Shown: positions 10,589-64,000 of the stretch, in pieces
Layout: the number at the start of each line of letters is the position of its first letter
Position numbering within the stretch: position 1 is the first letter of the stretch
From: Sphaerochaetaceae bacterium
GTDB lineage: Bacteria; Spirochaetota; Spirochaetia; Sphaerochaetales; Sphaerochaetaceae
NCBI GenBank assembly: GCA_028532765.1
Contig: JAQQAR010000076.1
Location: forward strand, 50,637 to 114,636
DNA: 64,000 nt
Direction: 5' to 3'
Made by a program: the position numbers and the translations under genes
The notes under the pieces: model-generated
Database searches by the model: none
Told to the model about the DNA's origin: nothing
The model's input: only the letters and a program-made list of their open reading frames with translations

Positions 10589-10616
10589 TTGACAACCAGA
10601 TGGTATTTGATACTGT
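10589..10616 (+). promoter_or_regulatory. Promoter predicting a leaderless transcript
   Basis: A perfect TTGACA at 10589-10594 and TACTGT at 10611-10616, separated by 16 bases. Six bases then precede the ATG at 10623, and no Shine-Dalgarno sequence is present. The predicted transcription start coincides with the start codon. Confidence 0.55.
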
Positions 10617-10622
10617 AATGCT

Positions 10623-11201
10623 ATGTTCAGTTTTAAAACGTGCTCTCACCCACTCTGCCATACCTATGTATGCAATGAAGGCAGCCATTGTTATCGCCAC
10701 AGCGAGAACCAAGACGAACTCTACCAGGATTGTCTTGATCGGCTAACCGGCAGCAACGATATTGTTGACTATTCTTTGACTGGTAGTGAGTTTGACAACC
10801 TAACCTTGGGCAAGAAAACCATTTCTGCCTCCAACATGGCTTGGTGCACTTTTCGAGGTGTGGATTTCTCACAAGTCACCTTACTCAACAGTTTTTTCGA
10901 TTTTTGTCTCTTCGAAAAGTGCAAATTCAACAGTATCATCTCCCGCTACAGTGTATTTTCCGGTAGTAAGATGATCGACTGTGATTTCTCAGGTAGCATG
11001 ATCATGCATACCAATTTCAGTGGAATTGACACACTTCGTTGTTCATTCGGAGACTGTGACCTCTACTTTTCGACCTTCAATTCAAGTTTCCTCAGGGATA
11101 CTGATTTTGAGGATTGCAACTTGAAGAAAGCCGACTTTGTCTATACTGACAGGAGACGCGTCTCCTTCCGCTACTCCAATTGGGAGGAGGCACGCTTTTG
11201 A
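10623..11201 (+). CDS. Pentapeptide-repeat protein
   Basis: A 192-residue protein. The N terminus carries a Cys/His cluster (CSHPLCHTYVCNEGSHCYRH) that could bind zinc. From about residue 50 the chain follows A(D/N)LXX-like pentapeptide spacing (CTFRG VDFSQ VTLLN, CDFSG, TNFSG, TDFED CNLKK ADFVY), predicting a right-handed beta-helix. The function is unknown; some relatives mimic DNA. The last bases encode the ribosome-binding site and overlap the start of the MBL-fold gene. Confidence 0.8.
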   Translation: MFSFKTCSHPLCHTYVCNEGSHCYRHSENQDELYQDCLDRLTGSNDIVDYSLTGSEFDNLTLGKKTISASNMAWCTFRGVDFSQVTLLNSFFDFCLFEKCKFNSIISRYSVFSGSKMIDCDFSGSMIMHTNFSGIDTLRCSFGDCDLYFSTFNSSFLRDTDFEDCNLKKADFVYTDRRRVSFRYSNWEEARF

Positions 11202-11806
11202 ATATCTATCAGCATTTCTCAGTCGTAGGTTTCTGTAATACCTATTTGGTTGCCCGTAAGGAGGGCAGTGATGCCCTCTTGATCGACCCTGGACATGTGG
11301 ATACGGAGTTGATCAACTTGATTGAGGCAAATAGGTACAAATTGAAACATGTACTGCTTACCCATCGACACCCTTCCCATACAGAGGGACTTGGCACCCT
11401 GAAGAAGATCTACGATGTGGAGGTCCATGCCTCAGCCTTTAGTAGCTATGAATTTCTCTATCATCCAATTGAGGATGCAGAAGTTCTTAATCTCTGTGGT
11501 TTGGAAATTGAGGTCATCCATATACCGGGTCACAGTTTGGACAGCATGGTATATAAAATCGACCATGCATTATTTACTGGTGATACGCTGCTTTGTGGTA
11601 GAATAGGGTCAACACCCGGATACCGGGAGCAGGCTCTGCTTATCTCATCCATCAATCAGAAACTAATGACACTCGATGAGAACATACTTCTCTTCCCAGG
11701 ACATGGCACGGCAAGCAAGTTGAGAATCGAGCGTATGTTCAACCACGATCTTTTGCAGTTGGGCAAGATTGAGACCGAGCGCCAGAATTGGAGAGAGGAT
11801 GAGTAG
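11198..11806 (+). CDS. MBL-fold metallohydrolase
   Basis: Metallo-beta-lactamase-fold hydrolase of glyoxalase II-like size, 202 residues. The metal motif reads THRHPSHTEG, so the Asp of HxHxDH is Ser; GHSLDSM, TGDTLLCGRIG and FPGHG supply the remaining ligands. The start is taken as TTG at 11198 because GGAGGAGG lies seven bases before it; the TTG overlaps the TGA of the pentapeptide gene, implying coupling. The substrate is unknown. The tail overlaps the convergent pseudouridine synthase by 68 bases. Confidence 0.8.
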   Translation: MNIYQHFSVVGFCNTYLVARKEGSDALLIDPGHVDTELINLIEANRYKLKHVLLTHRHPSHTEGLGTLKKIYDVEVHASAFSSYEFLYHPIEDAEVLNLCGLEIEVIHIPGHSLDSMVYKIDHALFTGDTLLCGRIGSTPGYREQALLISSINQKLMTLDENILLFPGHGTASKLRIERMFNHDLLQLGKIETERQNWREDE

Positions 11807-12746
11807 AGCGTACATAAGAGAGAAATCGTTCAGGCATTGCGGCAACAAAACGTAATCTCTTTCCTTTTGATGGGCTGTCAAGTTCAAGAATCAAGGCGTG
11901 CAACATCAAGGTCTGACCATCATCCTTCCCATAGATAGGATCGCCAATGATCGGGTGACCTTCCTTGCTTAAATGCACCCTGATCTGGTGGGTTCGTCCT
12001 GTGTGGAGGGTAATCCTCAAGAGTGCAAACCCACGGTACTGTCTCAAAACCTGATATTCTGTCTTGGCATATCTTCCTTCATCATCAGCACATGTGGTGA
12101 ATTTCTTTCGGTCCTTGGGATCACGTTTCAGATGTTTCTCTATGATACCGTGTCTCTGCTTAAAAACTCCTCTTACCAAGGCAATATAGATTTTCTTCGT
12201 CGTTCGGTCCTTGAACTGTGCAGAAAGATGCCTGTGGCTTGTCCTGTTTCGGGCAATTACCAAGACTCCACTGGTATCCTTGTCCAAGCGATGCACTATA
12301 CCGGGACGAACTGCAGGACTGGAGAGGTCTACTTCATCCTCACCTTCATCTTCATCCTGCAGTTCCTCACAGAACTGTTTGCCGTAGCGATGGACCAATG
12401 CATTGACCAGGGTATGTTCCATATTTCCATTTGCAGGGTGTACCACCATCCCTTGTTCCTTGTTGATAGCAAGAAGATCCTCATCCTCATACAGGACAGT
12501 GAGCGGAATGTCTTCACCTTCAATTCCTTCAAAGAATGACTGACTGAAGTGGATGCATATGCGGTCACCTTCCCTGACAAGCTTGCTTTTCTTGCTTGCC
12601 TTGCCATTAAGCTGAATCGTAGTATCTGCCTCACTCAAGGTAGAACGGGAGATGAGGTCACTATGGTTTGCAACATAGACATCCAAACGAAGGGGATGTT
12701 CCAAGGATTCTACAACGAGGTCTACCCTACCTTCCTTAACGCCCAT
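11739..12746 (-). CDS. RluA-family pseudouridine synthase
   Basis: RNA modification enzyme converting uridine to pseudouridine, 335 residues. An N-terminal S4-like domain (RLDVYVANHSDLISRSTL) precedes the catalytic RluA domain, with GIVHRLDKDTSG (catalytic Asp) near residue 150 and HTGRTHQIRVHL near 255. An acidic insert (DEDEGEDEVD) precedes the catalytic motif. The ATG at 12746 is chosen because GGGGA lies six bases upstream; it overlaps the upstream gene by 11 bases. Whether it is RluC- or RluD-like cannot be settled by eye. Confidence 0.92.
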   Translation of the reverse strand: MGVKEGRVDLVVESLEHPLRLDVYVANHSDLISRSTLSEADTTIQLNGKASKKSKLVREGDRICIHFSQSFFEGIEGEDIPLTVLYEDEDLLAINKEQGMVVHPANGNMEHTLVNALVHRYGKQFCEELQDEDEGEDEVDLSSPAVRPGIVHRLDKDTSGVLVIARNRTSHRHLSAQFKDRTTKKIYIALVRGVFKQRHGIIEKHLKRDPKDRKKFTTCADDEGRYAKTEYQVLRQYRGFALLRITLHTGRTHQIRVHLSKEGHPIIGDPIYGKDDGQTLMLHALILELDSPSKGKRLRFVAAMPERFLSYVRSTHPLSNSGARSQSCPTAKDRG

Positions 12747-13077
12747 CAGCATTCCCCACTTCACCGATGATATAATCGGCAATCGATATTCCCAGTGAAA
12801 GACCGGCAGCAATAGAACCTTGCATGAGGAAGCCTTGCAAGTCAGTCGATGGTGTTCCAATAAGATGGGAATCCACTGCAACACGGTACAGCAATGCAGC
12901 CACCGGGATCGTGATTACCATAGAGCCAAAGAAAAGCGTTTCAGCTCTCCTGATCTTATAACTCCAGAGAGGAAACTCTTCTTCCTCATAGGGCTCATAC
13001 CCCTTGAGCTGGTCAGCTGAAAGCTGCAAGGGGAAGATCATGAGCAGCAGCAATAGGATTACCATGACTCGGCGCAT
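12736..13077 (-). CDS. Small exported/membrane protein, unknown
   Basis: A 113-residue protein with a cleavable-looking signal (MRRVMVILLLLLMIFPLQLSA), an acidic stretch (YEPYEEEEFPL) and two further hydrophobic segments near residues 48-65 and 88-105. I do not recognise a family. It sits between the yggS-like and pseudouridine synthase genes, with a two-base gap and an 11-base overlap, so it is probably part of that operon. Confidence 0.65.
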   Translation of the reverse strand: MRRVMVILLLLLMIFPLQLSADQLKGYEPYEEEEFPLWSYKIRRAETLFFGSMVITIPVAALLYRVAVDSHLIGTPSTDLQGFLMQGSIAAGLSLGISIADYIIGEVGNADGR

Positions 13078-13079
13078 GA

Positions 13080-13763
13080 TTACCCCCGTTTCCCGAACAG
13101 CTTTGTCCCAATCCTTACCAGATTGGAACCTTCCTCAATTGCCAGGCGGTAGTCACCACTCATACCCATGCTTAGGGTATCGAATGATGGTGGGGCAAAT
13201 CGCTTTTGCACCGCATCATAAGCCTTTCTCAGTCGTGAGAACGCTGTTCTTACCATCTTCTCATCTCCATCCAAGGGACCAATGGTCATCAACCCACGTA
13301 CCTGGAGATAGGTACTTTGCATGATGACATCAAGTGCGGAGAAGAGCTCATCCTCACAAGTGAACCCACTTTTGGACTCTTCTTGTGCTGTCTTGAGTTC
13401 AAGCAGGATGGGAAATGGACGGGAAAGATATCCTTCAATTTTCTTGGCAAGTTTCAGGGAATCCACACTATCAATACCGTCAAAGAGCTCTACCGCCTTT
13501 TTTGCTTTATTCGATTGCAGGTGTCCTATCAGGTGCAGTCTCATCCCTTCCGGCCTAACTTGAGGTACCTTCTCCTGTACTTCCTGTACGCGATTTTCCC
13601 CATAGAGGAGCTGTCCGCACGAATACAGGTCCAGCATCTCCTGGTAGGTACGGGTCTTGCTTACTGCCATCAGCGTAATATCATTTGGGTCTCTCCCGGC
13701 AATCTTTGCAGCTTCGCCCAGGCTATCCAATATTTCCTGATAGTGTTCCCGTAACTCAATCAT
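13080..13763 (-). CDS. YggS-family PLP-binding protein
   Basis: PLP homeostasis protein of the YggS/PROSC family, 227 residues, a single TIM-barrel domain. VSKTRTYQEM holds the PLP lysine near residue 36; GENRVQEVQEK, HLIGHLQSNKAKK and SMGMSGDYRLAIEEGSNLVRIG are family signatures. It overlaps the stop of the upstream membrane-protein gene by eight bases. Confidence 0.94.
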   Translation of the reverse strand: MIELREHYQEILDSLGEAAKIAGRDPNDITLMAVSKTRTYQEMLDLYSCGQLLYGENRVQEVQEKVPQVRPEGMRLHLIGHLQSNKAKKAVELFDGIDSVDSLKLAKKIEGYLSRPFPILLELKTAQEESKSGFTCEDELFSALDVIMQSTYLQVRGLMTIGPLDGDEKMVRTAFSRLRKAYDAVQKRFAPPSFDTLSMGMSGDYRLAIEEGSNLVRIGTKLFGKRG

Positions 13764-14565
13764 CTCTCTTGTCGCTCCTATGCTTGTTGTTATGCAACTT
13801 CTTGTGCAAAGCAGTCTCCCGTATGGTCTTTCTCAATGTTTCCAGCAACAACCGTTTTTCCTCGTTGTTGCTTGTCAGCGAGGGAAATGCATGCAAGATT
13901 CGTTTGGCAGAAATACTGAGACGCATCTTCAATTCATCCAATTCAGTATCCAACTTTACACGCAAACCTTCAAGCATCTTATTCTCTCTGAATTCGCGAA
14001 GTACCTTCAGGCGACTTTCAATCTCCCTTTTCTTCTCCTTGAAATCTGCAAGTTGCTTCTGGAAGGCGCTCATTCGCAGTACCGAGCTGGTGGTATCAAC
14101 ACTAAGCAATACGATGATGATTTTTGCCCCATGCTCCATGAAAGCTGGAGTGAAATGACCGAACAATGCTGACAGATGGGGATGAACGCCATAGGTGACA
14201 AAAAGCGAGAGCACTCCAAAGAGGGTTGAGTTGAGGAGACAGACCCTTCCCTTGAGATTGAAGCGTGCAGAGGAGTAATCCCATAATCTGATGGAAAACA
14301 GTGTCTCAGCAAGATATCCTGAAGCATATTCCAGGATGCTGGTACCAATAACAGCGATGAAAAAAAGGATAAGTGGATTGTTGGATAATCTTGCAAAGAC
14401 GAAAATGACCAACACCGCTCCAAACCCATAGATGGGAAGATAGGGTCCATGAAGAAATCCACGGTTTACGAGCGTGCCCTGTCTTATGGAACAATACAGA
14501 ACCTCAACTATATAACCAAGAATAGAATAACAGAAAAAATACCAGATCAACAACGTCAGATCCAT
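13756..14565 (-). CDS. CmpB-like (PF06541) membrane protein with coiled-coil tail
   Basis: A 269-residue protein with four to five transmembrane segments in the first 150 residues. Family features include YSILGYIVEVLYCS, RGFLHGPYLPIYGFGA and LWDYSSARFNLKGRVCL, typical of the group annotated as putative ABC transporter permease (CmpB). The C-terminal 120 residues are a charged coiled coil. No ATPase is adjacent, so a transport role is not supported by context. GAGG lies seven bases before the ATG. Confidence 0.75.
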   Translation of the reverse strand: MDLTLLIWYFFCYSILGYIVEVLYCSIRQGTLVNRGFLHGPYLPIYGFGAVLVIFVFARLSNNPLILFFIAVIGTSILEYASGYLAETLFSIRLWDYSSARFNLKGRVCLLNSTLFGVLSLFVTYGVHPHLSALFGHFTPAFMEHGAKIIIVLLSVDTTSSVLRMSAFQKQLADFKEKKREIESRLKVLREFRENKMLEGLRVKLDTELDELKMRLSISAKRILHAFPSLTSNNEEKRLLLETLRKTIRETALHKKLHNNKHRSDKRDD

Positions 14566-14636
14566 ACCATAACCTCATTGTCAGATACTACTATACTCAC
14601 AACCATTTTGAGCGGCAATAGTACCCCTATCAAAGC

Positions 14637-14661
14637 AAAAACGCACTCTGTGAAGAGTGCG
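14637..14661 (-). terminator. Terminator of tRNA-Val
   Basis: CGCACTC (14642-14648) and GAGTGCG (14655-14661) form a stem with a 6-nt loop, followed on the minus strand by TTTTTGCTTT. It lies five bases past the tRNA 3' end. Confidence 0.85.
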
Positions 14662-14665
14662 TCTA

Positions 14666-14737
14666 TGACCGGAGAGGGATTTGAACCCCCGACCAGTTGC
14701 GTGTAAGGCAACCGCTCTCCCGCTGAGCTATCCGGCC
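14666..14737 (-). tRNA. tRNA-Val (anticodon UAC)
   Basis: A full cloverleaf is visible on the minus strand: acceptor GGCCGGA/TCCGGTC, D-arm GCTC...GAGC, anticodon arm GTTGC with loop CTTACAC, TTCAAAT T-loop and discriminator A. The CCA end is not encoded. Length 72 nt. Confidence 0.93.
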
Positions 14738-14747
14738 GTTGAAACAG

Positions 14748-14777
14748 AACGTATCACAAAGAGAGGAAAACTGTCAA
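14748..14777 (-). promoter_or_regulatory. Promoter of tRNA-Val
   Basis: TTGACA (14772-14777, minus strand) and TACGTT (14748-14753), separated by 18 bases, end ten bases before the mature tRNA. The -35 overlaps the last bases of the upstream GGDEF/EAL gene. Confidence 0.6.
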
Positions 14778-30514: not shown

Positions 30515-30963
30515 GCTCCGTTTTCCATTGCCTGTCTTACCAGCTGGTCACACCGTTCATTGTCTGCAATACCGGCATGTCCTTTTACCCAGTTCCACTG
30601 AACCGGTAACTGTTCATTGAGTGCATCAAGTGCAACCCAGTACTCCTTATTCTTGACTGGGCTTTTACTGGCGGTTCGCCATCCATTGACTTTCCACTTC
30701 TTGATCCAGCTTGTTATACCGTTTTTCACATACTGGCTGTCTGTATTGATGACAATCCGTTCAGGATCATACTGTTTGCAAGCCTGCAAGGCTTCAATAA
30801 CAGCCCTTAGTTCCATTCGGTTGTTTGTGGTGGCAGCCTCAAATCCACTTGCTTCCTTCTCAAACTTCCCATTATCGGCCCTGAGTACAAAAGCCCAACC
30901 ACCGGGCCCAGGATTCCCAAGACACCCACCATCTGTATAGATCTCAATTTCTGCATGATTCAT
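30511..30963 (-). CDS. rnhA: Ribonuclease HI
   Basis: Degrades RNA in RNA-DNA hybrids, 150 residues. Catalytic residues are visible: IYTDGGCLGNPGPGGW (first Asp), NNRMELRAVIEAL (Glu), NTDSQYVKNGI (second Asp), and NWVKGHAGIADNERCD (His and last Asp). The ATG at 30963 (MNHAEIEIYTDG) lacks a Shine-Dalgarno sequence, but a promoter ends seven bases before it, so leaderless initiation is likely. The longer TTG start would fall inside that promoter. Confidence 0.93.
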   Translation of the reverse strand: MNHAEIEIYTDGGCLGNPGPGGWAFVLRADNGKFEKEASGFEAATTNNRMELRAVIEALQACKQYDPERIVINTDSQYVKNGITSWIKKWKVNGWRTASKSPVKNKEYWVALDALNEQLPVQWNWVKGHAGIADNERCDQLVRQAMENGA

Positions 30964-30970
30964 AGACCGG

Positions 30971-30999
30971 ATAGTAATATAGCTGGCCCCTCCGGTCAA
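30971..30999 (-). promoter_or_regulatory. Promoter of rnhA, leaderless type
   Basis: Minus strand TTGACC (30994-30999), 17 bases, TACTAT (30971-30976), then seven bases to the ATG. Confidence 0.55.
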
Positions 31000-32168: not shown

Positions 32169-32197
32169 TTGACAGCCCCTGCCCTACTTCGTAGGAT
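32169..32197 (+). promoter_or_regulatory. Promoter of the cobalamin-uptake operon
   Basis: Perfect TTGACA (32169-32174), 17 bases, TAGGAT (32192-32197). The expected transcription start, about 32203, coincides with the 5' strand of riboswitch helix P1. Confidence 0.7.
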
Positions 32198-32200
32198 AGA

Positions 32201-32400
32201 TTGTCCATGCCAAGGGAAAGGGGTTGAAGCCCCTGCGGTCCCGCCACTGTAGAGGCTGGGAATCTGCACCAAGACACTGTTAAGTAATGGGAAGTCGCAG
32301 ATTCTGAGCATGCCTGAGCCAGGAGACCTGACATGGATAAATTCCGACGGCCTACGGAGTATAGGTCAGGGTATGTTACATGCCCGTGCAAAGGGGCGTT
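32201..32400 (+). ncRNA. Cobalamin riboswitch (aptamer 32201-32340 plus expression platform)
   Basis: Conserved core AAGGGAA, then GAAGCCCCTGCGGTCCCGCC and ACTGTAG, then the B12 box GAGCCAGGAGACCTGAC near 32315-32331. P1 pairs TTGTCCATG (32201-32209) with CATGGATAA (32332-32340). In the platform, GCCC (about 32383) can pair with the GGGC that contains the AGGGG ribosome-binding site of the next gene, suggesting translational repression when adenosylcobalamin binds. It leads a B12-type ABC importer. Confidence 0.92.
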
Positions 32401-33276
32401 ATGCACAATCGAACCGCTAAACACTATCTCCTATTCATTGCTTCTTTTCTGCTTCTTACATTCTCCCGTATTGGTGCACAACCAGTACTTGAGATTGGGA
32501 CCCAGAAGCAAGCTGAGGAAATCCGTATTGTAAGTCTTTCCCCAAACGTCACCGAGACACTCCATGCCCTGGATGCAGGGTCTTACTTGGTGGGAAGAAG
32601 CGACTACTGCAATTACCCTGAAGAAGTTGTTGAGTTGCCGTCGGTAGGAACCTTGTACAACCCTAGCCTCGAAACCTTGCTTTCTCTTGAGCCTAGTGTA
32701 GTTATCAGCAGTGCTTTTGTTTCTGATGATTTTCTCGCCTCCGTGGAAAAAGCTGGTATTGAAGTAGTCCAACTTGAAACACAGCAAACCTTTCAAGGGA
32801 CCTATGAGTTGATACGCAAAATAGCTGAGGTGGTGGGAAAGCAGAGTGAAGCAGAACTTATCATCCTTTCGATGCAGAATACCGTGCGGGAAGTTGTAAA
32901 CACTTACCAGAACAAGAGTAGGCCCTCAGTGTACATGGTTATCGACTTCGGAGGTTTTGATGCTACCGCCACCGGCGATACCTTCCTTGGGGAGATGATA
33001 GAACTCGCAGGGGCAACAAACGTGGCAAAGAGTGCCAAGAACTGGACATTCAGCAAGGAACTTCTGATGGCAGCCGATCCTGAGATTCTCCTGCTCAATC
33101 CCCGCTGGGGAGAAAGCGCAGAAGCAACAATTCAGGAATTTACGACCACAAAGCCTTATAACGATTTGACTGGTACAATCATAAGCTTTGATGCAGATTC
33201 TACCAGCAGGCAAGGACCAAGGAGTGCTGATGCATTGAAAGCACTTGCTGAGTTGATCCATCAGGAAACGAACTAA
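32401..33276 (+). CDS. btuF: Cobalamin ABC transporter substrate-binding protein (BtuF-like)
   Basis: Exported binding protein of the FepB/BtuF class, 291 residues. Signal peptide region HYLLFIASFLLLTFSRIGA, then IRIVSLSPNVTETLHAL near residue 43 and VGRSDYCNYPEEV near 65, typical of BtuF. The ATG at 32401 follows AGGGG by about four bases. B12 specificity is inferred from the riboswitch. It overlaps the permease start. Confidence 0.88.
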   Translation: MHNRTAKHYLLFIASFLLLTFSRIGAQPVLEIGTQKQAEEIRIVSLSPNVTETLHALDAGSYLVGRSDYCNYPEEVVELPSVGTLYNPSLETLLSLEPSVVISSAFVSDDFLASVEKAGIEVVQLETQQTFQGTYELIRKIAEVVGKQSEAELIILSMQNTVREVVNTYQNKSRPSVYMVIDFGGFDATATGDTFLGEMIELAGATNVAKSAKNWTFSKELLMAADPEILLLNPRWGESAEATIQEFTTTKPYNDLTGTIISFDADSTSRQGPRSADALKALAELIHQETN

Positions 33277-38552: not shown

Positions 38553-39329
38553 TCAGTCTTTCCAAGGGAAAATCATATTCTTCAAGGAACGGTGTCCAAC
38601 ACTCTCGCGTTCTTCATAAAGCAGTTCATCCCAAGGGATATGCTTCCTGTCAGCCTCCGGTTCCTCTTCAAGATAGTCATACTTGTACATCATCAGTTTG
38701 ACGGCATCACTGCTGGCAAGCAACATGCCGGTCACTCCAGGGGCTAGGCCTGCAAGGAGTGCCGATAACACAAAATTCACTATCTGGTACACAGCAAAGA
38801 ACAAGGTAAAGAAGAGGTTGTCAAATACAATGAGAAAGCTCTTTTTCAGAGTCTTGATCGGACGGTCCCCAGGCATCGAACGAAAGAGTGCCCAGTAATA
38901 CAGAAGGGCGAAACTCAACCCCATGAACAACCAGAAAAGTATGACACTGAGCAGAGTTCCTACCGCATTGCCATAGCTTAGGTAAAAGGGAATGACAAAC
39001 AGGATGAGTGAGACATCAAGCACGGAAAGCAGCCAGTAAAAAAGGCTATGTCTCCATGAGTCCCTGATGCCATGCTTGAATCCTTCCCAGCCAGGCCGTT
39101 CATATTTTGCATATGCCCAGGTAGAGGCTGAAGTGCCTGCTGTGAAGAAGGCAAACAGGCCTACTGAAAGAATCATGGCAACTACGGATAGCAATCCATG
39201 TATTTCCATGAGGCTCATGCTTCCCATGAAGGCAAGCAAGATCAAGAGGAACCCAAGGTTGTGGACAACCATCGAAATGAGGTTGTCCCAGCCATCGAAA
39301 AACGCTTTTTTAATGAAGAATCCAGTCAT
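38553..39329 (-). CDS. Six-TM membrane protein, unknown
   Basis: A 258-residue protein with five to six hydrophobic segments, a central WAYAKYERPGWEGFKHGIRDSWRHS loop and a charged C-terminal tail (EEEPEADRKHIPWDEL). It resembles uncharacterised spirochaetal membrane proteins of the YesL-like type, but this is a weak impression. No Shine-Dalgarno sequence; a promoter (TTGCTT, 17 bp, TACTCT) ends six bases before the ATG. Confidence 0.75.
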   Translation of the reverse strand: MTGFFIKKAFFDGWDNLISMVVHNLGFLLILLAFMGSMSLMEIHGLLSVVAMILSVGLFAFFTAGTSASTWAYAKYERPGWEGFKHGIRDSWRHSLFYWLLSVLDVSLILFVIPFYLSYGNAVGTLLSVILFWLFMGLSFALLYYWALFRSMPGDRPIKTLKKSFLIVFDNLFFTLFFAVYQIVNFVLSALLAGLAPGVTGMLLASSDAVKLMMYKYDYLEEEPEADRKHIPWDELLYEERESVGHRSLKNMIFPWKD

Positions 39330-39335
39330 GCTACA

Positions 39336-39364
39336 AGAGTACTCATACGATTGCAGGAAAGCAA
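39336..39364 (-). promoter_or_regulatory. Promoter, leaderless type
   Basis: Minus strand TTGCTT (39359-39364), 17 bases, TACTCT (39336-39341), then six bases to the ATG at 39329. Confidence 0.5.
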
Positions 39365-42014: not shown

Positions 42015-42064
42015 ACTATACTATGCTTTTTTCTGGCTACAAAGACTTTGTTTCATAGTATACT
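42015..42064. promoter_or_regulatory. Symmetrical divergent promoter region of GH4 gene and thpR
   Basis: TATACTATG (42017-42025) and CATAGTATA (42054-42062) form a wide dyad. Each arm contains a -10: TATAGT (minus, 42015-42020, with TTGTAG 16 bases upstream) and TATACT (plus, 42059-42064). The plus -10 ends six bases before the thpR ATG. Confidence 0.5.
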
Positions 42065-42070
42065 GTCTGC

Positions 42071-42586
42071 ATGAGACTCTTTTATGCACTGCTCTTTCCT
42101 GAGAGCACTTTGCAACAGCTTACATCCATCCAGAACACCATTGTTCCTTATCTCTCTAAAGGAAAACCAACGAGCAAAGGGAATCTCCATCTCACCCTCG
42201 CTTTTCTCGGAGAGCAGGACGAGAAGATCCTACCTTTGCTTAGTGATATCCTTGAGGCAATGCCTAAAAGAAAGATGGAAGTCCTGTTCAATCATGTAGG
42301 GACATTTCCCAAACAGGGAGGTGACATCATCTACAGTGGAATAACCCATCATACAGGATTGTTTCAATTACAGAAAACACTTGTTACCCTGTTGCAAGAG
42401 TATCATGTGGTCTTCAAAGATACCCGTTTTAAAGCACATATTACGCTCTTTCGAAGAGCGAGGTATACAGAGCTTCCCGAGATTGCATGTTTTACCAGCA
42501 AGGCAAAAAGTATTGCCCTGATGCAGTCCCACCGCGTACAAGGAATCCTTACCTACACTCCTCTCATTTCTAAAACAATACAATAA
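42071..42586 (+). CDS. thpR: RNA 2',3'-cyclic phosphodiesterase
   Basis: Two-histidine (2H) phosphoesterase of the LigT/ThpR family, 171 residues. The two catalytic motifs are NLHLTLAFLGE near residue 38 and KAHITLFRRARY near 121. It hydrolyses 2',3'-cyclic phosphate RNA ends. No Shine-Dalgarno sequence; the -10 TATACT ends six bases before the ATG, predicting a leaderless mRNA. Confidence 0.9.
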   Translation: MRLFYALLFPESTLQQLTSIQNTIVPYLSKGKPTSKGNLHLTLAFLGEQDEKILPLLSDILEAMPKRKMEVLFNHVGTFPKQGGDIIYSGITHHTGLFQLQKTLVTLLQEYHVVFKDTRFKAHITLFRRARYTELPEIACFTSKAKSIALMQSHRVQGILTYTPLISKTIQ

Positions 42587-42642
42587 ATACAGTTGTATTT
42601 TAGCTCATTGCAAACTATTCCCTTCCATGGTACCCTCCACAC

Positions 42643-43419
42643 ATGGATACATATGTTGAGCACAATGCACGAGCCTGGGATAGTGAAGTTGAAAAACACA
42701 CTATTTGGACAGATGGTTGCACTGAAGAACAGATAGAGAAAGCACGCAGAGGGGAATTGGATATGGTTCTCTCTCCGTTCAAGCAGGTCCCTCCTTCCTG
42801 GGTTAGTGATGTAAAAGGGAGAAAGATCCTTGCCCTTGCCTGTGGTGGTGGACAGCAAGCGGTTCTCCTTGCCCTCGCTGGCGCTGAGGTTACCCTGTAT
42901 GATATTTCGGAAAAACAACTCGCACAGGATGCCTCCTATGCTGAGCGACTCCAACTGGAAATGGAATTCGTCAAGGGAGATATGCGTGACCTCTCCTGTT
43001 TTGCAGACTCTACATTTGACCTGATATACAACCCAACCTCCACATGTTTCATTGATGAAGTACACAGCATGTATCATCACTGCTACAGAATCTTGAAGAA
43101 AGGTGGGAGATTGCTTACCAGCATCACCAACCCGGTGCTCTATCTCTTTGACGAAAAGAAAGCCTTGAGAAACCACCTCCATGTGAAATACACCATCCCC
43201 TACTCTGACCTAAAAAGCCTTGGGAAAAAGGAGTTGGAAAAGCGAATGAGAAAACATGATACCATTGAATTTTCCCATACCTTGCAAGACTTGCTTGGGG
43301 GGCTTACGGACTCTGGGTTTCATATAACTGGTATCTACACCGATACTGCAGGATTCATGATGATCGACAGTTATATCCATGACTGCTATCTTGCAGTTCG
43401 TGCAGAGAAGAGCTTGTAG
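42643..43419 (+). CDS. SAM-dependent methyltransferase
   Basis: Class I methyltransferase, 258 residues. SAM-binding ILALACGGGQQAVLLALAGAEV near residue 65, acidic YDIS after strand 2, KGDMRDLSCF and YNPTSTCFIDEV for motifs III-IV. Small-molecule acceptor likely; identity unknown. No Shine-Dalgarno sequence: TTGCAA (42608-42613), 17 bases, TACCCT (42631-42636) and six bases to the ATG predict a leaderless mRNA. Confidence 0.87.
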   Translation: MDTYVEHNARAWDSEVEKHTIWTDGCTEEQIEKARRGELDMVLSPFKQVPPSWVSDVKGRKILALACGGGQQAVLLALAGAEVTLYDISEKQLAQDASYAERLQLEMEFVKGDMRDLSCFADSTFDLIYNPTSTCFIDEVHSMYHHCYRILKKGGRLLTSITNPVLYLFDEKKALRNHLHVKYTIPYSDLKSLGKKELEKRMRKHDTIEFSHTLQDLLGGLTDSGFHITGIYTDTAGFMMIDSYIHDCYLAVRAEKSL

Positions 43420-43449
43420 GGTACAAACCCATCTGTGTATACTAAGGAT

Positions 43450-44277
43450 ATGGAAAACTATTTTGCACGATTACTACTCTCCAGTGAACTTGATGACCCG
43501 CTCTACTTTGCACGGGTACATCAGAATATTGCCGATCTGGAGAAGAAGCGAGTAGCTCACTTCAACGAATATGGCCCCATGAATCAAGAATATGTACTCC
43601 TGATGGGGGATTTGAACATGGCCTACTACCGTGCAGGAGAGACCCATAAAGAGTTGGAGGTTGCTCAACAGATTTATCAGACAAGTCAGATCCTTCATGG
43701 TGATGATGATGAATCAACCATAGAGGCCATGATCGCCTTAGGCAACTCATATCTTGATGATGGACAAAGCGCTGAGGCACAATCCATTGTTGAGGATCTG
43801 CTTAATCGTGATTACACCAAAGAGAATGGCCCCTCCTATGATCTCTATATCGATTCACTCTGCCTACAGGCAGACATCTACCATATCCAAAAGAAGTTTG
43901 ATGAGGAGCTTCTGCTCCGTCAGCAGGTACTCACCATCCTTATCTCATTCCAAGGATCTACGAGCAGTCAGAGTATCATGGCTCGCTGTGCACTTGGGGT
44001 ATGCCTTGAGAGGAGATACGCCTGGAGAGAAGCCCTTGAACAGTACAGGATTATCCGGTCCTACCTTGATATAGAATCGGATTTTGCCTCTGAAGCAGAG
44101 AAAATTGGACTGCTTGTTCATATTGCGCGCTGCTATCGCAAGCTCGGTGAAGTTGAGGATGCAAGGACTCTCTACCGGTGGGCTCACCGTAAAGCCCACG
44201 TCTATTTTGGTCCTGCCTCTCCATTGGCTTTGAAAATGCAACGGCTTCTCAAGGCAGCTGAGCACAACAACCGATAA
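43450..44277 (+). CDS. TPR-type tetratricopeptide protein
   Basis: A 275-residue helical protein. Repeats such as GDLNMAYYRAGETHKELEVAQQIYQTS, ALGNSYLDDGQSAEAQSIVEDLL and IARCYRKLGEVEDARTLYRWAHRKA follow the TPR/kinesin-light-chain pattern. Probably a protein-interaction scaffold. No signal peptide. The ATG at 43450 is preceded by TTGTAG, 18 bases, TATACT and six bases; AAGGA is too close to be a normal ribosome-binding site, so it is probably leaderless. A GTG at 43435 is the alternative start. Confidence 0.8.
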   Translation: MENYFARLLLSSELDDPLYFARVHQNIADLEKKRVAHFNEYGPMNQEYVLLMGDLNMAYYRAGETHKELEVAQQIYQTSQILHGDDDESTIEAMIALGNSYLDDGQSAEAQSIVEDLLNRDYTKENGPSYDLYIDSLCLQADIYHIQKKFDEELLLRQQVLTILISFQGSTSSQSIMARCALGVCLERRYAWREALEQYRIIRSYLDIESDFASEAEKIGLLVHIARCYRKLGEVEDARTLYRWAHRKAHVYFGPASPLALKMQRLLKAAEHNNR

Positions 44278-53761: not shown

Positions 53762-54610
53762 CTATGCCTCTTGGAGATAATCCATCAACTTCCTGATGGT
53801 AAGTGGGGCGCTCCCTTCATAGTGATTGTTCACATTGATGTAAATCACCTTACCCTCCTGTGCAAGCTTTACCAGTCTTGGAGCAATTGCGACCAGTTCA
53901 TGATCATGGCTTTCAAGAATTCGATCCCACCTCCCCCCACTCTCCTTTTCAATTTCTTTCCTATCTTCACCATGTAAACGTACACAGAAAGGTGAATGGA
54001 GATGGGACCCTGCTCTCTGTAATTGTGTGTCAAGATCATCCATCCAGTACCCAGAGAGCAATACAGGACCAATATGCCGTTGCTCCAGGAAGGAGAAGTA
54101 GGAGGAATCCATCCATGCAGGGTTCCTGAGCTCTACGGCATAGGGAAGAGAATCAGGGAGCAAGGAGAAAAACCTGTCAAGGGATTCCATGAACTCATCA
54201 CGATCCTTGAACATACTACGGTTCAGGTATCCAAACTGAAACATGAGCAAGCCTATTTTCGGGATAAGGGGTTCAAGGGTTTCTATGAACCGATAAAACA
54301 CCTCGGCATCAAGAAACCAAGGGTTTGGTTCACTCTTGCTCTGGTAACTGAATGGAAGGGTCAAGGTATTTGGACACTTAATGGTAAACCTAAAGCTGTC
54401 AGGAGTATCCTGGTTATATTCTCTCACATCATGGGGGTCAGGAAGCCCATAGCTCCGCTTTCCCAACGACCAGAACCACCTATCCACTTCCACCGAATCA
54501 TAGGTATTGGCATACTGGGCAAGGTACCGCTCGGTACTACCAGGCTCATACACCAATCCTTCCCAACTCTCATACTTCCACGAACATGTTCCAAAGTGCA
54601 GGGTACTCAT
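53762..54610 (-). CDS. DUF72 family protein
   Basis: A 282-residue TIM-barrel-like protein of the DUF72 (YecE) family, function unknown. Typical motifs: GTCSWKYESWEGLVYEPG at the N terminus, YDSVEVDRWFW near residue 38, FTIKCPNTLTLPF near 78, LLMFQFGYLNRSMF and YAVELRNPAWMDSSYF near 185. No clear Shine-Dalgarno sequence; TTGCTC, 17 bases, TACAGT and five bases precede the ATG. Confidence 0.88.
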   Translation of the reverse strand: MSTLHFGTCSWKYESWEGLVYEPGSTERYLAQYANTYDSVEVDRWFWSLGKRSYGLPDPHDVREYNQDTPDSFRFTIKCPNTLTLPFSYQSKSEPNPWFLDAEVFYRFIETLEPLIPKIGLLMFQFGYLNRSMFKDRDEFMESLDRFFSLLPDSLPYAVELRNPAWMDSSYFSFLEQRHIGPVLLSGYWMDDLDTQLQRAGSHLHSPFCVRLHGEDRKEIEKESGGRWDRILESHDHELVAIAPRLVKLAQEGKVIYINVNNHYEGSAPLTIRKLMDYLQEA

Positions 54611-54641
54611 GCCTTACTGTAGCAAGGCTTAAGAGGCGGAG

Positions 54642-54671
54642 CAAGGCCGGAACCTTGCAGTTCCGGCCTTG
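54642..54671. terminator. Strong hairpin ending the malQ operon
   Basis: CAAGGCCGGAAC (54642-54653) and GTTCCGGCCTTG (54660-54671) form a perfect 12-bp stem with a 6-nt loop, 35 bases after the malQ stop. No long T-run follows on the minus strand, but the stem is very stable. Confidence 0.7.
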
Positions 54672-57987: not shown

Positions 57988-58018
57988 ACCGCCTTGCCTT
58001 CCAATGAAGGTAGGCGGT
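57988..58018 (-). terminator. Intercistronic hairpin between binding protein and permease
   Basis: ACCGCCT...CCTTC (57988-58001) pairs with GAAGG...AGGCGGT (58006-58018), one unpaired base, 4-nt loop. Same position in the operon as the hairpin at 25958, pointing to differential expression of binding protein over permeases. Confidence 0.65.
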
Positions 58019-58044
58019 CTATCCTGACATGTTTTCTACGAAAA

Positions 58045-59388: not shown

Positions 59389-59423
59389 TGATTCATTCTC
59401 CTTTGGTGTTACCGTAATCATTG

Positions 59424-59441
59424 GGGAGAAACATTTCTCCC
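59424..59441 (-). promoter_or_regulatory. Palindrome in the 5' UTR of the importer operon
   Basis: GGGAGAAA and TTTCTCCC around a 2-nt centre, 36 bases before the ATG. Either an mRNA hairpin or a second regulator site; no assignment possible. Confidence 0.45.
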
Positions 59442-59464
59442 ATCATTTTCTTTGGTACTCCTTT

Positions 59465-59493
59465 ATACTAAACCGGTTTTATAAACCGGTCAA
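59465..59493 (-). promoter_or_regulatory. Promoter with two CCGG operators for the importer operon
   Basis: Minus strand TTGACC (59488-59493), 17 bases, TAGTAT (59465-59470). AAACCGGTTT (59470-59479) lies in the spacer exactly as in the lacI promoter; a second copy (AAACCGGTC, 59483-59491) overlaps the -35, with centres 13 bases apart. Strong evidence of shared control by the LacI protein at 22888. Confidence 0.75.
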
Positions 59494-59687
59494 CTTAATT
59501 CGTATATAACTTTCAGTAGTATATTATTTCTCATAGTACTACCCTTTTCATGTATTCTGTTCTACCGATAACAGAACCAATCTCAAAGAAACAAAGCGTT
59601 CACTTGTATTCAAGATTATTATTTGAGAGACAAGAGGAGTTATATTTTTAGTACATTGGTAATAATAAAGGGTTTGTCTGTTTTTCC
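59494..59687. other. AT-rich intergenic region
   Basis: About 190 bases between the importer promoter and the diguanylate cyclase 3' end. No gene seen. TTCTGTT/AACAGAA forms a weak dyad near 59556-59577; otherwise nothing supported. Confidence 0.5.
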
Positions 59688-60746
59688 TCAGTTGGTGAAC
59701 ACCTCTACCCGGTTTCTCCCCATCTCCTTGGCACGATAGAGGGCCTTATCAACCTGACGGAATATCTTGACCTCGGAATCGTCAGGAAGTACGGGAGAGA
59801 CCCCGAAACTGGCGGTAATCTTTCCCACCTGTTCAAATACGTGGTTCTCAATGTTCTCTCGTAATGATTCTGCGAGAGCCTTTCCATCACGCTTCGTAAG
59901 AATGAGAAACTCCTCCCCTCCCCAACGCGCAAGTGATTCATCTTCCAGCAGTTGGTCTTTTACTAAAGCAGAGATTTCTTTCAGGAGAAGATCCCCCCGT
60001 TGATGACCAAAGGTATCGTTGACCAATTTGAAATGATCCAGATCGAAAAGGATAAGTGCAGATACTGCAGTACCACCTTTCTTGTTCTTCAATAGCTCTG
60101 AAATTATGCTGTCTATCTTGCGTCTGTTGAGTAATCCGGTCAGTGCATCCTGTTCACTGAGCATACGCAGTTGTTGGTTTTGTTCCTCGATAAGACTGAT
60201 ATGCTTCTGTTCCTGTCTATAATAACGATAGTTGAGCGCCGAAACAGTCCAGGCAATACCATTATTTATGACAAAATCGGTACGAAAAGGAACATTGTTT
60301 GCAAGCAGTGAATGCGAGTTCACCATAACAATCGAGGCAATGGTAAACGTACCATAAAGAATACCAGACTGGACATAATCCAGAAGAAAGAAGACAGCTC
60401 CGCCATAGATGAACGCTAGATAAAGCGTGGGAATATTCAAGAGGATTCCTTTATTTGCAAACATCCTATTGAGAGCAATAACCATGCCAAGCGCAAGGGG
60501 CAGCATTTCAAAAAATGGATAACCCATTCCAGAGATGGTTTCTTTAGGCTTGCTTATCACAAGGCTGATGAGACAGAGAAATGAAATAAGAAAGGCACTG
60601 AGGAAGTACTGGGCTCTCACAGGAGTACCTGGCTGTATTAAAAATATACCATAGAGCAACTGTTCTACAGCAAGCAATGCTGAGATTATTCTGGTAGCTT
60701 TCAAGTTTCTGATGAAACGTTTGGTTCTCTGGTCGAGGGGAGTCAT
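59688..60746 (-). CDS. Membrane-bound diguanylate cyclase
   Basis: Makes cyclic di-GMP, 352 residues. About five to six membrane helices in residues 18-165, a short linker coiled coil (HISLIEEQNQQLRML) and a GGDEF domain starting DALTGLLNRRK near 200, with FDLDHFKLVNDTFGHQRGD and active-site ARWGGEEFL near 277. Complete active site, no EAL partner. No Shine-Dalgarno sequence; a promoter ends seven bases before the ATG. Confidence 0.93.
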   Translation of the reverse strand: MTPLDQRTKRFIRNLKATRIISALLAVEQLLYGIFLIQPGTPVRAQYFLSAFLISFLCLISLVISKPKETISGMGYPFFEMLPLALGMVIALNRMFANKGILLNIPTLYLAFIYGGAVFFLLDYVQSGILYGTFTIASIVMVNSHSLLANNVPFRTDFVINNGIAWTVSALNYRYYRQEQKHISLIEEQNQQLRMLSEQDALTGLLNRRKIDSIISELLKNKKGGTAVSALILFDLDHFKLVNDTFGHQRGDLLLKEISALVKDQLLEDESLARWGGEEFLILTKRDGKALAESLRENIENHVFEQVGKITASFGVSPVLPDDSEVKIFRQVDKALYRAKEMGRNRVEVFTN

Positions 60747-60753
60747 AAACTCA

Positions 60754-60782
60754 TATATACCCTATTTCCTCCCACACGTCAG
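60754..60782 (-). promoter_or_regulatory. Promoter, leaderless type, of the diguanylate cyclase
   Basis: Minus strand CTGACG (60777-60782), 17 bases, TATATA (60754-60759), seven bases to the ATG. Confidence 0.5.
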
Positions 60783-60824
60783 CTAAAAAAGATCGACCAA
60801 TGGTGATTAAGTTTACAAAATGGT

Positions 60825-60860
60825 AAAAAAGAGGAGAGAAACTGTATCGGCTCTCCCCTC
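60825..60860 (-). terminator. Terminator of the third sugar ABC operon
   Basis: On the minus strand GAGGGGAGAG pairs with CTCTCCTC across a 12-nt loop, followed by TTTTTT. It lies 18 bases after the binding-protein stop. Confidence 0.85.
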
Positions 60861-60877
60861 TTGGTAAAAGCAAGAGA

Positions 60878-62155
60878 TTACTTGTTGATCAGACGAACCA
60901 ACAAGTCACGAATCTGCTTACCACCCTCGGCAGGTGTGATTTCACCAAATGCAACTCTCTGATAAATCAGGAAGAGTGTGCTATTGAACTCAGTGTCATT
61001 GGGCACATGGTCCGTCTCTGCTGAGGAGTGGGGACCTGCAACCTGCATGTAATCAAGCACTTTCTGATCTGCTGGGGTTGCTGCACCAGCGGCACGAGCA
61101 GTAGCTGAAGCGCTTGCTCCCCTATTGCTTCCAAGAATCAAGGCTGCATCAGGATCATTGACCAAGAAGTTGATAAACTTCACCGTTTCTTCCGGATTCT
61201 TTGAATCCTTGTTTACGGTATAGAACTGACTAGGAGCTTGCCAAAGAGCCTTGGTGGCTGCAGCGCCTGGAAACTCCATGAGCTCAAGCTCATCGGTTGT
61301 TGCTGCTTGATACCCACCAAGTTGGTTGGTATAGAGATACCCAATGGCTACCTTTCCAGCAATCAAGGCAGAAGAGTCTGCATTGTTCTCTGCAAAACCA
61401 GCGGCTACATCAGGGGGCGGTACCAGACCATTCTTACGATAATCAGCGAACAGCTCAAGGTACTTCTGAGCATCATAAGCTGTTACATCAGTACTGGAAG
61501 AAGCTGCATCATAGAGAGGAGTACCATTATATCGGGCCCAGTATCCAAATGGTGTGGAATTGGTAGACATAACACCAATATCCTGCATTGGATAAACACC
61601 ACGAGGCAGTTTGCTCTTGAGCAATACCAAATAGTCACGGAACTCATCGTACGTCAAAGATCTCTTTGGAAGAGGAACCCCTGCTCTCTCAATCATGGAC
61701 TTGTTATAAACCAATGCCGGCATCGTAACACCAGTAGAGACGCCAAGAAGCTTCCCATCAATGGTACCACTAGCAACAGCACTTGGGTCGATAACTGCAG
61801 TATCCAACAAGGTTCCAGCATACTGATCCAATGGGAGAAGCACATCCGCATAGTCGTAAATGTTTCCACCCATCTGGATAATATCAGGACCATTTCCACC
61901 TGCAAGCTGTGTATCTACTTTTACAAAGTGATCACCAGCTCCACCGGAAACCTCAGGGTTTACCTTGACTCCTGGATTTCGGCTCTCGTACAGATCAATG
62001 GCTTCCTGACTGATGGTGACTCTCTCTCCACTGCCCCAATAGGCCCAGCGGACAGTAGTCTCCCCAGTCTCTGCTGCTTGTTCCTTGGTGCCTGCACCAA
62101 AAACCAATGAAGCACTCAGTAAAACGAAAAGCAAAACCAATAAGGTCTTTTTCAT
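60878..62155 (-). CDS. Sugar ABC transporter substrate-binding protein
   Basis: Exported family 1 solute-binding protein, 425 residues, signal peptide KKTLLVLLFVLLSASLVFG. Features: VRWAYWGSGERVTISQEAIDLYE, GNGPDIIQMGG, PALVYNKSMIERAGVPLP and NPEETVKFINFLVNDPDAA. Unlike the other two importers it is the last gene of its operon, after the permeases. The ligand is unknown. Confidence 0.9.
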   Translation of the reverse strand: MKKTLLVLLFVLLSASLVFGAGTKEQAAETGETTVRWAYWGSGERVTISQEAIDLYESRNPGVKVNPEVSGGAGDHFVKVDTQLAGGNGPDIIQMGGNIYDYADVLLPLDQYAGTLLDTAVIDPSAVASGTIDGKLLGVSTGVTMPALVYNKSMIERAGVPLPKRSLTYDEFRDYLVLLKSKLPRGVYPMQDIGVMSTNSTPFGYWARYNGTPLYDAASSSTDVTAYDAQKYLELFADYRKNGLVPPPDVAAGFAENNADSSALIAGKVAIGYLYTNQLGGYQAATTDELELMEFPGAAATKALWQAPSQFYTVNKDSKNPEETVKFINFLVNDPDAALILGSNRGASASATARAAGAATPADQKVLDYMQVAGPHSSAETDHVPNDTEFNSTLFLIYQRVAFGEITPAEGGKQIRDLLVRLINK

Positions 62156-62183
62156 AGAAACCTCCTATGTTTCTGGGATGCTA

Positions 62184-63029
62184 TCATCCCTTGATACCAG
62201 TAGTAGCGATACCTCTGACAAAATACTTCTGCAAGGAGAAAAACAAAATGAATGCAGGAATGAGCGAAAGCACAGACATAGCAAACATCGGCCCCCAGGA
62301 AGACATGCCAGAAGCGTCCAAAAACAGTCTCAGTCCCATGGGGACAGTATATTTATCAGGACTGGTCAAGTAGAGCAACTGGTTGAAGAAATCGTCCCAA
62401 GTCCATAAGAAAGAAAATAATAACGTTGTAATCAAGGCGGGTAACGTGAGCGGCATGATAATCCTTGTATAGATACCGAACTTACTGCATCCATCGATAA
62501 CTGCACTTTCGTCAATATCCTTTGGTAATCCTCTGATGAACTGTACCAACAGGAAGATAAAGAATGCATCAGTAGCAAAGAACTTCGGTACCACAATAGG
62601 CAAGAACGTGTTAATCCAACCAAAGTTGCGAAACATGATATAACGAGGAATTGTTGTAACATGGGATGGCAACATCAGGGTAATCATCATAAGTGCAAAC
62701 CAGTACTTCTTCCCAGCAAACTTCAGTCTGGCGAATGCATAGGCTGTCAACGAACAGAACATTGCGTTGGCTAAAGCACTGAGTAAGCAGATGGTAAAGG
62801 AGTTCTTGAAGAAGGTATCAAATCCTACGATACCTATGCCGTTCCACCCAACTGGATAGTTTTCAGTGGTGAATTCCTTAGGCCAAAGGGATGGATCGGT
62901 AAAGATCATATTACTGGGCTTAAACGAGGCCCCGACCAACCAGAGAATCGGATAAAGCATACTCACCCCAAGGGCGATGATGAATGCATTCAGCAGCAGC
63001 CTGTTGATTTTTTCTTTTCTCTTCAGCAT
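62184..63029 (-). CDS. Sugar ABC transporter permease (MalG type)
   Basis: A 281-residue permease, six membrane segments, EAA loop DIDESAVIDGCSKFGIYTRIIMPLTLPAL-like around residues 172-200. GGGGAG precedes the ATG by six bases. Intact, although its partner permease gene upstream is broken, so the importer may be non-functional or use another partner. Confidence 0.9.
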   Translation of the reverse strand: MLKRKEKINRLLLNAFIIALGVSMLYPILWLVGASFKPSNMIFTDPSLWPKEFTTENYPVGWNGIGIVGFDTFFKNSFTICLLSALANAMFCSLTAYAFARLKFAGKKYWFALMMITLMLPSHVTTIPRYIMFRNFGWINTFLPIVVPKFFATDAFFIFLLVQFIRGLPKDIDESAVIDGCSKFGIYTRIIMPLTLPALITTLLFSFLWTWDDFFNQLLYLTSPDKYTVPMGLRLFLDASGMSSWGPMFAMSVLSLIPAFILFFSLQKYFVRGIATTGIKG

Positions 63030-63032
63030 ACC

Positions 63033-63860
63033 CTACTCCCCTGTTCCATAGGATACCAAGGCACCCGAGAATCTGAACGAAAGTGCAGTAAGCCCAGCAA
63101 TAATAATAAGCAAGACCCAAGCCATTGCCGCCGCATATCCCATTTCAGCAAATCCAAATCCCTTTATATACAGATACAGGCTGTAGAACATCGTTGAGTC
63201 AAGAGGACCTCCCGAACCTCCGCTGACAATAAATGCTTGGGTAAATGATTGAAATGCGCTGATCATTTACATGACAAAATTGAAGAAGATGATAGGTGAG
63301 AGTGAAGGAAGTGTAATGGCGAAGAACTGCCGAATCTTCCCTGCCCCATCAACGCTGGAGGCCTCGTAGAACTCCCTGGGAATTTGTTGCAAGCCTGCTA
63401 GGAATATGATCATGGGTGAACCAAACTGCCAAATTGCAAGAAGAATCAAGGTATAGAGTGCATACTTTGGATTCGATATCCAGGCAGGAAGCATCTCAAG
63501 TCCCAGTGTTCTTTCCAGAATCATGTTCAACACCCCGTCTCCAGCAAAAAGTCGTCTCCACAGGACTGCTATGGCGACACTTCCACCCAAGAGGGTTGGA
63601 ATATAGTAGAGCGCACGGTAGAGCGGAATCAACTTGAGCTTTTTGTTCATAAGCATGGCAACAGCCAATGCGAACACCAACTTCAAGGGCACGGAGATGA
63701 ATACAAACTTGAATGTAACGATCATCGAATTTACGAAGCGATCGTCACGAGGAAGTATATCGGTTCCAGCAAACATGACCAGATAATTCCTCAGCCCAAT
63801 CCATTCAGGAGGTGTGCGGATATTGAACTGGGTAAATGAAAGATAGAGTGAGTAACACAC
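63033..63860 (-). pseudogene. Sugar ABC permease (MalF type), in-frame stop and missing 5' end
   Basis: The reading frame 63860-63267 encodes five-sixths of a permease (YSLYLSFTQFNIRTPPEWIG, EAA loop EFYEASSVDGAGKIRQFF) and stops at TAA after FNFVM; the same frame continues at once as MISAFQSFTQAFIVSGG and the last two membrane helices. In relatives this join is usually VMxxI without a break; CAA to TAA would explain it. The first membrane helix is also absent: a TGA directly precedes the GTG at 63860 and no helix is found upstream in any frame. Confidence 0.75.
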
Positions 63861-63934
63861 TCAAATTCCCGTCTCAGTTGTAACTAGGATTTGAATAATT
63901 CTTTTAAATAGTTGCAGATAATGGCAGAAAGTAC

Positions 63935-63963
63935 GTGACAAAAGCATCAAACATAGATATAAT
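63935..63963 (+). promoter_or_regulatory. Promoter with palindromic operator at the window end
   Basis: GTGACA (63935-63940), 17 bases, TATAAT (63958-63963). CATAGATA (63952-63959) and TATCTATG (63966-63973) form an 8-bp dyad spanning the -10 and the ATG at 63971. Binding there would block both transcription and the start. Confidence 0.6.
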
Positions 63964-63970
63964 TGTATCT

Positions 63971-64000
63971 ATGAAAGATGCCAATGCAAAACCGATGAAA
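63971..64000 (+). CDS. Start of a plus-strand gene (partial)
   Basis: Ten codons (MKDANAKPMK) at the right window edge after a strong promoter whose -10 ends seven bases before the ATG. Too short to identify. Next to a sugar ABC operon, a transcriptional regulator would be a reasonable guess only. Confidence 0.35.
   Translation, partial: MKDANAKPMK

Follow-up and report, generated by a model that had tools for sequence, protein, structure and literature searches.

Nine start codons in the window

The DNA analysed here, called the window throughout, is a stretch of 64,000 nucleotides from a Sphaerochaetaceae bacterium of the phylum Spirochaetota (GenBank assembly GCA_028532765.1), which covers positions 50637-114636 of contig C76 (JAQQAR010000076.1) within a 3.16 Mb draft assembly of 93 contigs. 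Nine of its genes have a promoter-like pair of hexamers directly in front of the ATG (Table 1), where the spacer is the number of bases between the -10 hexamer and the start codon and the gap is the number between the -35 and -10 hexamers. An earlier note on this DNA had proposed that genes of this kind lack a Shine-Dalgarno (SD) sequence and carry a -10 box that ends 5-7 bases short of the ATG. We found this at all nine sites: each can be read in the sequence, and no AGGA, GGAG or GAGG lies 4-20 bases 5' of any of the ATGs, the soft spots being the -35 of thpR and the TATATA of the GGDEF gene. Our data indicate that the genome very probably uses two start classes, an SD majority and an estimated 5-10% of genes in which a sigma-70-type promoter ends 6-7 bases before the ATG and which are likely leaderless.

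Table 1. Promoters and start codons of the nine genes, with boxes given as -35 hexamer/gap/-10 hexamer/spacer
Feature	Position	Strand	Coding sequence	Boxes	Family
Pentapeptide-repeat protein, promoter and ATG	10589..10625	+	10623-11201	TTGACA/16/TACTGT/6	Pfam Pentapeptide
rnhA (ribonuclease HI), promoter and ATG	30961..30999	-	30963-30511	TTGACC/17/TACTAT/7	NF001236
Membrane protein (label of the earlier note), promoter and ATG	39327..39364	-	39329-38553	TTGCTT/17/TACTCT/6	
thpR (RNA 2',3'-cyclic phosphodiesterase), promoter and ATG	42036..42073	+	42071-42586	GCTACA/17/TATACT/6	TIGR02258
SAM methyltransferase, promoter and ATG	42608..42645	+	42643-43419	TTGCAA/17/TACCCT/6	Methyltransf_11
TPR protein, promoter and ATG	43414..43452	+	43450-44277	TTGTAG/18/TATACT/6	
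DUF72 protein, promoter and ATG	54608..54644	-	54610-53762	TTGCTC/17/TACAGT/5	
GGDEF protein (diguanylate cyclase), likely leaderless	60744..60782	-	60746-59688	CTGACG/17/TATATA/7	
IS1634-family transposase (predicted), promoter and first 10 codons	63935..64000	+	from ATG 63971	GTGACA/17/TATAAT/7	

A spacing peak in genes without SD sequences

The gene-level sample consisted of the window and further stretches of the same genome, 1,066,924 bases or about one third of the genome, in which 806 genes (739 with ATG starts) were called from coding score and start-codon type only, with no promoter signal. Sufficient upstream sequence was available for 795 of them, comprising 285 SD-less ATG genes, 447 SD genes and 63 with GTG or TTG starts. 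Among the SD-less ATG genes the hexamer TANNNT occurs 33 times at spacer 6 and 15 times at spacer 7 (48/285), compared with 5, 6, 7 and 3 times at spacers 3, 4, 5 and 8, and the next highest count over spacers 0-44 is 11, at spacer 0. SD genes have it 3 times at spacer 6 and 4 times at spacer 7 (7/447; Fisher p ~2e-14), and GTG or TTG starts never do (0/63; p 0.017). The distribution of -10-to-ATG distances among SD-less genes was the check that the earlier note had suggested, and in this third of the genome the peak lies where it was expected.

An expectation-maximization (EM) mixture model, seeded with AGGAGG, TATAAT and TTGACA and given flat priors on spacer (0-40) and gap (14-21), learned a -10 of TATACT and a -35 of TTGACA, with a gap of 17 (72%) or 18 (19%) and a spacer of 6 (29%) or 7 (16%); smaller shares at spacers 20-30 are compatible with ordinary promoters of leadered genes. 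The same model run on shuffled upstream sequences gave no peak at spacer 6-7. Its posteriors for the window genes are 1.00 for 30963, 39329 and 43450, 0.98 for 42643, 0.93 for 42071 and 60746, and 0.52 for 54610. A search of the draft assembly for the 16S rRNA 3' end, which holds the anti-SD, gave no 16S match; the EM model places 80% of genes in the SD class, which implies that a working anti-SD exists.

As TANNNT is a short motif, boxes near start codons could be background matches, a reading that we regard as practically ruled out by position and conservation. At a score of at least 6, 41 of 733 ATG starts (5.6%) pass, compared with 35 of 6534 internal in-frame ATGs (0.54%), a rate from which about 4 of the 733 starts would be expected. 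Shifting the boxes 3 or 6 bases in either direction leaves 2-7 passing starts, and shifts of 9 and 18 bases leave 6 and 8. The model trained on this genome passes 19/276 starts and 12/2393 internal ATGs in the relative G202, and the G202 model passes 32/733 starts and 58/6534 internal ATGs here. Over the whole genome the spacing-specific excess is 221 vs 127.

A further possibility is that the start codons are misplaced and that the true starts lie downstream, behind SD sites. Choosing a start by coding score is uncertain, since the coding-only caller placed the membrane-protein start at 39272, which moved to 39329 under the EM model, and it took such a shift to bring some members into the class; the same caller missed the pentapeptide gene 10623 altogether. 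This promoter-blind caller nevertheless picked 30963, 42071, 42643, 43450, 54610 and 60746 independently, and for six window genes the alignment with orthologues from the genus begins with residue 1 at the listed ATG, so that misplacement is a highly improbable explanation for the class. The membrane-protein gene, 39329 vs 39272, also bears out the expectation of the earlier note that start annotation would be affected.

Conservation of the box-to-ATG distance

Orthologues were read in a genus set of 19 loci around the methyltransferase gene (18 relatives and the window's own) and in a second set of 34 named loci, partly from the same genomes, in which the pentapeptide protein was out of reach. 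In the genus set, TANNNT stands exactly 6 bases before the ATG of the TPR gene at 18 of 19 loci. For thpR the spacer is 6 at all 14 readable loci, the window's own included and down to 30% protein identity (of 17 rows, three were left out, two for want of a start within range and one because its alignment begins only at residue 76; two loci yielded no row). The methyltransferase gene has TANNNT at spacer 6 or 7 at 15 of 17 readable loci, again including the window's own (19 rows, two cut off). All three genus loci without the box have an SD-like word instead, AGGAG at the two methyltransferase loci and AGGA at the one TPR locus. The distance between box and ATG is thus maintained to 30-40% protein identity while the flanking bases vary.

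Among the named loci, the box is kept by the TPR gene in 11/11, by thpR in 6/7 (the seventh has no start), by rnhA in all 3 relatives with the gene in reach and by the membrane-protein gene in 4/5, the fifth having GAGG. The best named match of the methyltransferase is that of Sphaerochaeta halotolerans (L148; 89%), and the match in the same-genus genome G200 occupies identical contig coordinates (90079-90852) to the one in that record; the genus of the present genome is accordingly taken to be Sphaerochaeta. The pentapeptide gene shows the same frame and boxes in its G202 orthologue, the only relative whose DNA was read for this gene, and its protein aligns from residue 1 in 11/11 genus genomes. 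DUF72, which the earlier note had already set apart as a weaker case with five bases, has spacer 5 and the marginal posterior given above, yet TANNNT is present at spacer 5 (eight) or 6 (two) in all ten orthologues, for two of which the ATG used lies two codons downstream of the aligned start. The boxes of the GGDEF gene are kept in four close relatives; of two relatives at 44-46% identity, one has no TANNNT there and the other no start codon in reach.

Comparison with G202 gave 185 reciprocal best hits, which include 18 class members of this genome. Thirteen of these are class members in G202 as well (12 at matching starts, one at unrelated starts), three fall in the class 'other' and two in the SD class; of these last five, TPR and DUF72 nonetheless have the box in G202. 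A spacer peak found only in SD-less ATG genes, together with conservation of the spacing in orthologues, supports the proposal of the earlier note that two initiation classes coexist in one genome.

Side observations were made at three of these genes. The -35 hexamer of the TPR gene (TTGTAG, 43414-43419) includes the stop codon of the preceding methyltransferase gene, and the TTG at this position is kept in most relatives though the bases that follow vary. The leaderless promoter of DUF72 is abutted on its upstream side by an inverted repeat (54643-54670) whose arms are 11 bases long and which is seen, by eye, in altered forms in relatives; it may act as the upstream gene's terminator and insulate the promoter. 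The GGDEF gene (59688-60746) has an out-of-frame ATG 8 bases before its start, and distant relatives (among L182-L187) differ there.

Size and genomic setting of the class

The EM model puts 80 of 805 genes above a posterior of 0.5 and 49 above 0.9, and subtracting background from the strict score leaves about 5% of genes. From these sequence scores we estimate a class of 5-10% of genes, the upper end of which is treated as inflated. ATG is the start in 76 of the 80 members, the ATG share of all genes also being high. The class prefers genes that are first in a transcription unit: a gene on the opposite strand lies upstream of 42/80 members vs 158/694 other genes (p < 1e-6), and the preceding gene is on the same strand and no more than 40 nt away for only 9/80 members vs 279/694 others (p < 1e-6); 7 of the 80 members are at a stretch edge. 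Class members have a slightly lower per-codon coding score (0.139 vs 0.159, p 0.001).

This setting bears on another explanation, in which the boxes near the ATG serve a different transcript while translation of the proteins uses longer, SD-free messages that start upstream and are read with the help of S1 or an unstructured leader. Some class members do lie close behind a same-strand gene, for example 42643 and 43450, where read-through messages are possible. With an opposite-strand gene upstream of 42 of 80 members, and with orthologues conserving a box-to-ATG distance for which a promoter independent of the start codon would have no use, we consider this explanation very unlikely.

Five divergent pairs, 63-94 bases apart, were scored leaderless on both sides (L014:704-3222, L028:2763-4892, L031:4475-6885, L044:16264-18555 and L022:11805-13218). 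The last of these is marginal, with one member at 0.51, and the first, which encodes an FGE-sulfatase domain protein and a signal peptidase S26, belongs to the leaderless class in G202 as well.

Proposed initiation without a leader

RNA polymerase usually begins a transcript at a distance from the -10 box such that a spacer of 6 sets the start on the A of the ATG, and in leaderless messages the 5'-terminal AUG is recognised by ribosomes loaded with initiator tRNA. At the sites described here the polymerase would start about 7 bases below the -10, on the A of the ATG or 1-2 bases before it, which for genes of spacer 6 would give a message with no leader. Ribosomes that already carry initiator tRNA would then bind the 5'-terminal AUG directly, with no SD pairing.

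The transcripts could instead carry very short leaders of 1-5 bases, as a -10 box 5-7 bases away also permits starts just before the ATG. Spacer 7 is common, DUF72 retains spacer 5 in 8/10 orthologues, and the start choice of the polymerase is generally known to shift by a base or two. On the other side, the commonest spacer is 6, which sets the usual start exactly on the A of the ATG, and SD-less genes show no excess of TANNNT at spacers 8-11 (3, 6, 9 and 9). We therefore consider short leaders a serious possibility, though an unlikely one, and favour messages that begin at the start codon itself.

Several points weigh against two start classes of which the smaller is leaderless. Sequence alone cannot separate a leader of 1-3 bases from none. 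Within the window the -35 of thpR (GCTACA) is weak and has no TTG-type hexamer, and the final base of the GGDEF -10 (TATATA) is not T; the GGDEF gene is the weakest of the nine cases. The EM shares are inflated, as the 'no signal' class shrank to zero, and the model assigns 19.1/329 genes to the class even in G101, a genome of the small-genome group f5 described below, which serves as a gauge of model noise. When the boxes are displaced by 12 and 15 bases, 17 and 18 starts pass, presumably from ordinary promoters of leadered genes. Finally, conservation is incomplete: the 34 named methyltransferase loci comprise 21 with the box, 4 with SD, 7 with neither and 2 without a readable start, and four genes are class members in G202 but not in this genome.

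Occurrence in other spirochaete genomes

The pattern TTGNNN-N17,18-TANNNT-N6,7-ATG was counted against the same pattern at spacer 9-10 in 60 whole genomes. Besides the present genome these were 11 of the 23 relatives in its genus, all 38 from its class in our draw and a hand-picked 10 of 159 from other classes. The ratio is at least 1.2 in all 42 genomes of the class that lie outside the groups f5 and g4, and 1.13 in the sole g4 genome. In the seven f5 genomes (G076, G101, G106, G134, G161, G180 and G188; 1.0-1.8 Mb) the pooled ratio is 1.00. Outside the class, 6/10 genomes reach 1.2, with a maximum of 2.1 in G147, and the ratio is 1.18 over four genomes of family f18 and 1.31 over the six others. 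The lower ratios, with 6/10 genomes enriched, indicate that the trait is weaker in other classes yet not restricted to this one.

At the gene level, the EM peak is also found in G202 (expected 31/303 genes) and in G063, a class member of 70% GC (20/134 genes); G138, with 57 kb in short contigs and 21 genes, was left unused for EM. In the f5 genome G101 (29% GC) the 151 SD-less genes show no sharp peak, with 15, 4, 10 and 12 boxes at spacers 5, 6, 7 and 8. Against a pattern read backwards the f5 genomes do show an excess (1011 vs 758, summed), which we put down to base and codon order. In view of the 29% GC, we tentatively take f5 to be Borrelia-like. The negative result in f5 may mark a limit of the motif, in a method that is noisy at 29% GC, since a paper on the Borrelia ribosome (PMC10618245) describes leaderless transcripts as frequent in Borrelia burgdorferi. 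Why the spacing signal is missing in these small genomes despite such messages is a question raised by our data.

A more far-reaching idea is that class membership is a heritable, gene-specific trait on which selection acts across Spirochaetia. The class would then be a second way of initiation, ancestral and eroded only in reduced genomes, which acts as a translational regulon, readable by 70S or IF2-rich ribosomes when SD-dependent initiation is held back. We offer it as a speculation that is probably wrong in this full form.

Relation to known leaderless systems

Leaderless genes are already in print for spirochaetes (PMC3160421, PMC5243855), and what is added here is the gene-level conservation of spacing within Sphaerochaeta; our literature search found no paper joining 'leaderless' and 'Sphaerochaeta'. 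In the sections of PMC5243855 used here, differential RNA sequencing of Leptospira interrogans mapped starts no more than 10 nt from the start codon in 430-450 genes and exactly on it in 184 and 170 genes at two temperatures. L. interrogans is thus likewise a spirochaete with leaderless genes, with starts that were measured on RNA there and are predicted from sequence here; motifs besides sigma-54 were, in those sections, not identified, whereas a clear -35/-10 pair is seen here. The sets quoted in the same sections, 505 genes for Mycobacterium tuberculosis and 1174 for Deinococcus deserti, are also genome-scale and RNA-measured, but larger.

The TA-led genes of Zheng et al. 2011 rest on the same criterion, a TANNNT about 12 bp before the start, and in PMC3160421 6 of 18 spirochaete genomes are listed as having leaderless genes, on average 3.9% (1.8-6.9%); our values, about 5% by the strict score and 10% by the model, are within or above that range. 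GeneMarkS-2 predicts leaderless transcription in 21.6% of bacterial species, for up to 40% of transcripts, according to the text of PMC9581028 consulted, in which the word 'spirochaet' occurs 0 times (other spellings were not searched).

These results may help to correct gene starts across the spirochaete class, where SD-trained gene finders can miss such starts, and they supply clean promoter-to-ATG landmarks for mapping. Orthologue sets that have apparently switched between leaderless and SD starts make the evolution of the switch testable.

Gene content and neighbouring features

The earlier note had also remarked that several of its candidates are regulatory or RNA-related genes; no leaning of the class towards such genes was seen. 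In a Pfam comparison of 78 of the 80 class members (two span stretch borders) with 80 first-in-unit controls drawn from 277, the commonest class families are HATPase_c (4), GGDEF (3) and GNAT (3) and the commonest control families are solute-binding proteins (5), AraC-type HTH (3) and GGDEF (2). The class is a mixed set, with GGDEF in 3/78 members vs 2/80 controls; this applies to the 25 commonest families, and small biases could escape. NCBIfam matches, made for class members alone, were uninformative as to functional bias. The protein of 38553-39329 has no Pfam or NCBIfam match.

The edge gene at 63971, of which the window holds only 10 codons, is by sequence a multi-copy IS1634-family transposase, the family being assigned from the L198 copy (NF033559 transpos_IS1634, E 1.9e-71; PF01609). 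Matches to the region 63861-64000 number 12; they fall in 5 of 11 relatives, with a maximum of four in any one genome. Eleven loci were cut out; nine read through the start and all of these keep GTGACA/17/TATAAT/ATG in register, and two are partial. In 8/9 copies the frame stays open as far as the fetched sequence extends (510 codons), and in one for 337 codons; the contig, hence the window, terminates inside this repeat. Elsewhere in the window, a cobalamin riboswitch (RF00174, 70.5 bits) lies at 32191-32349 on the plus strand, just 5' of a gene called at 32401.

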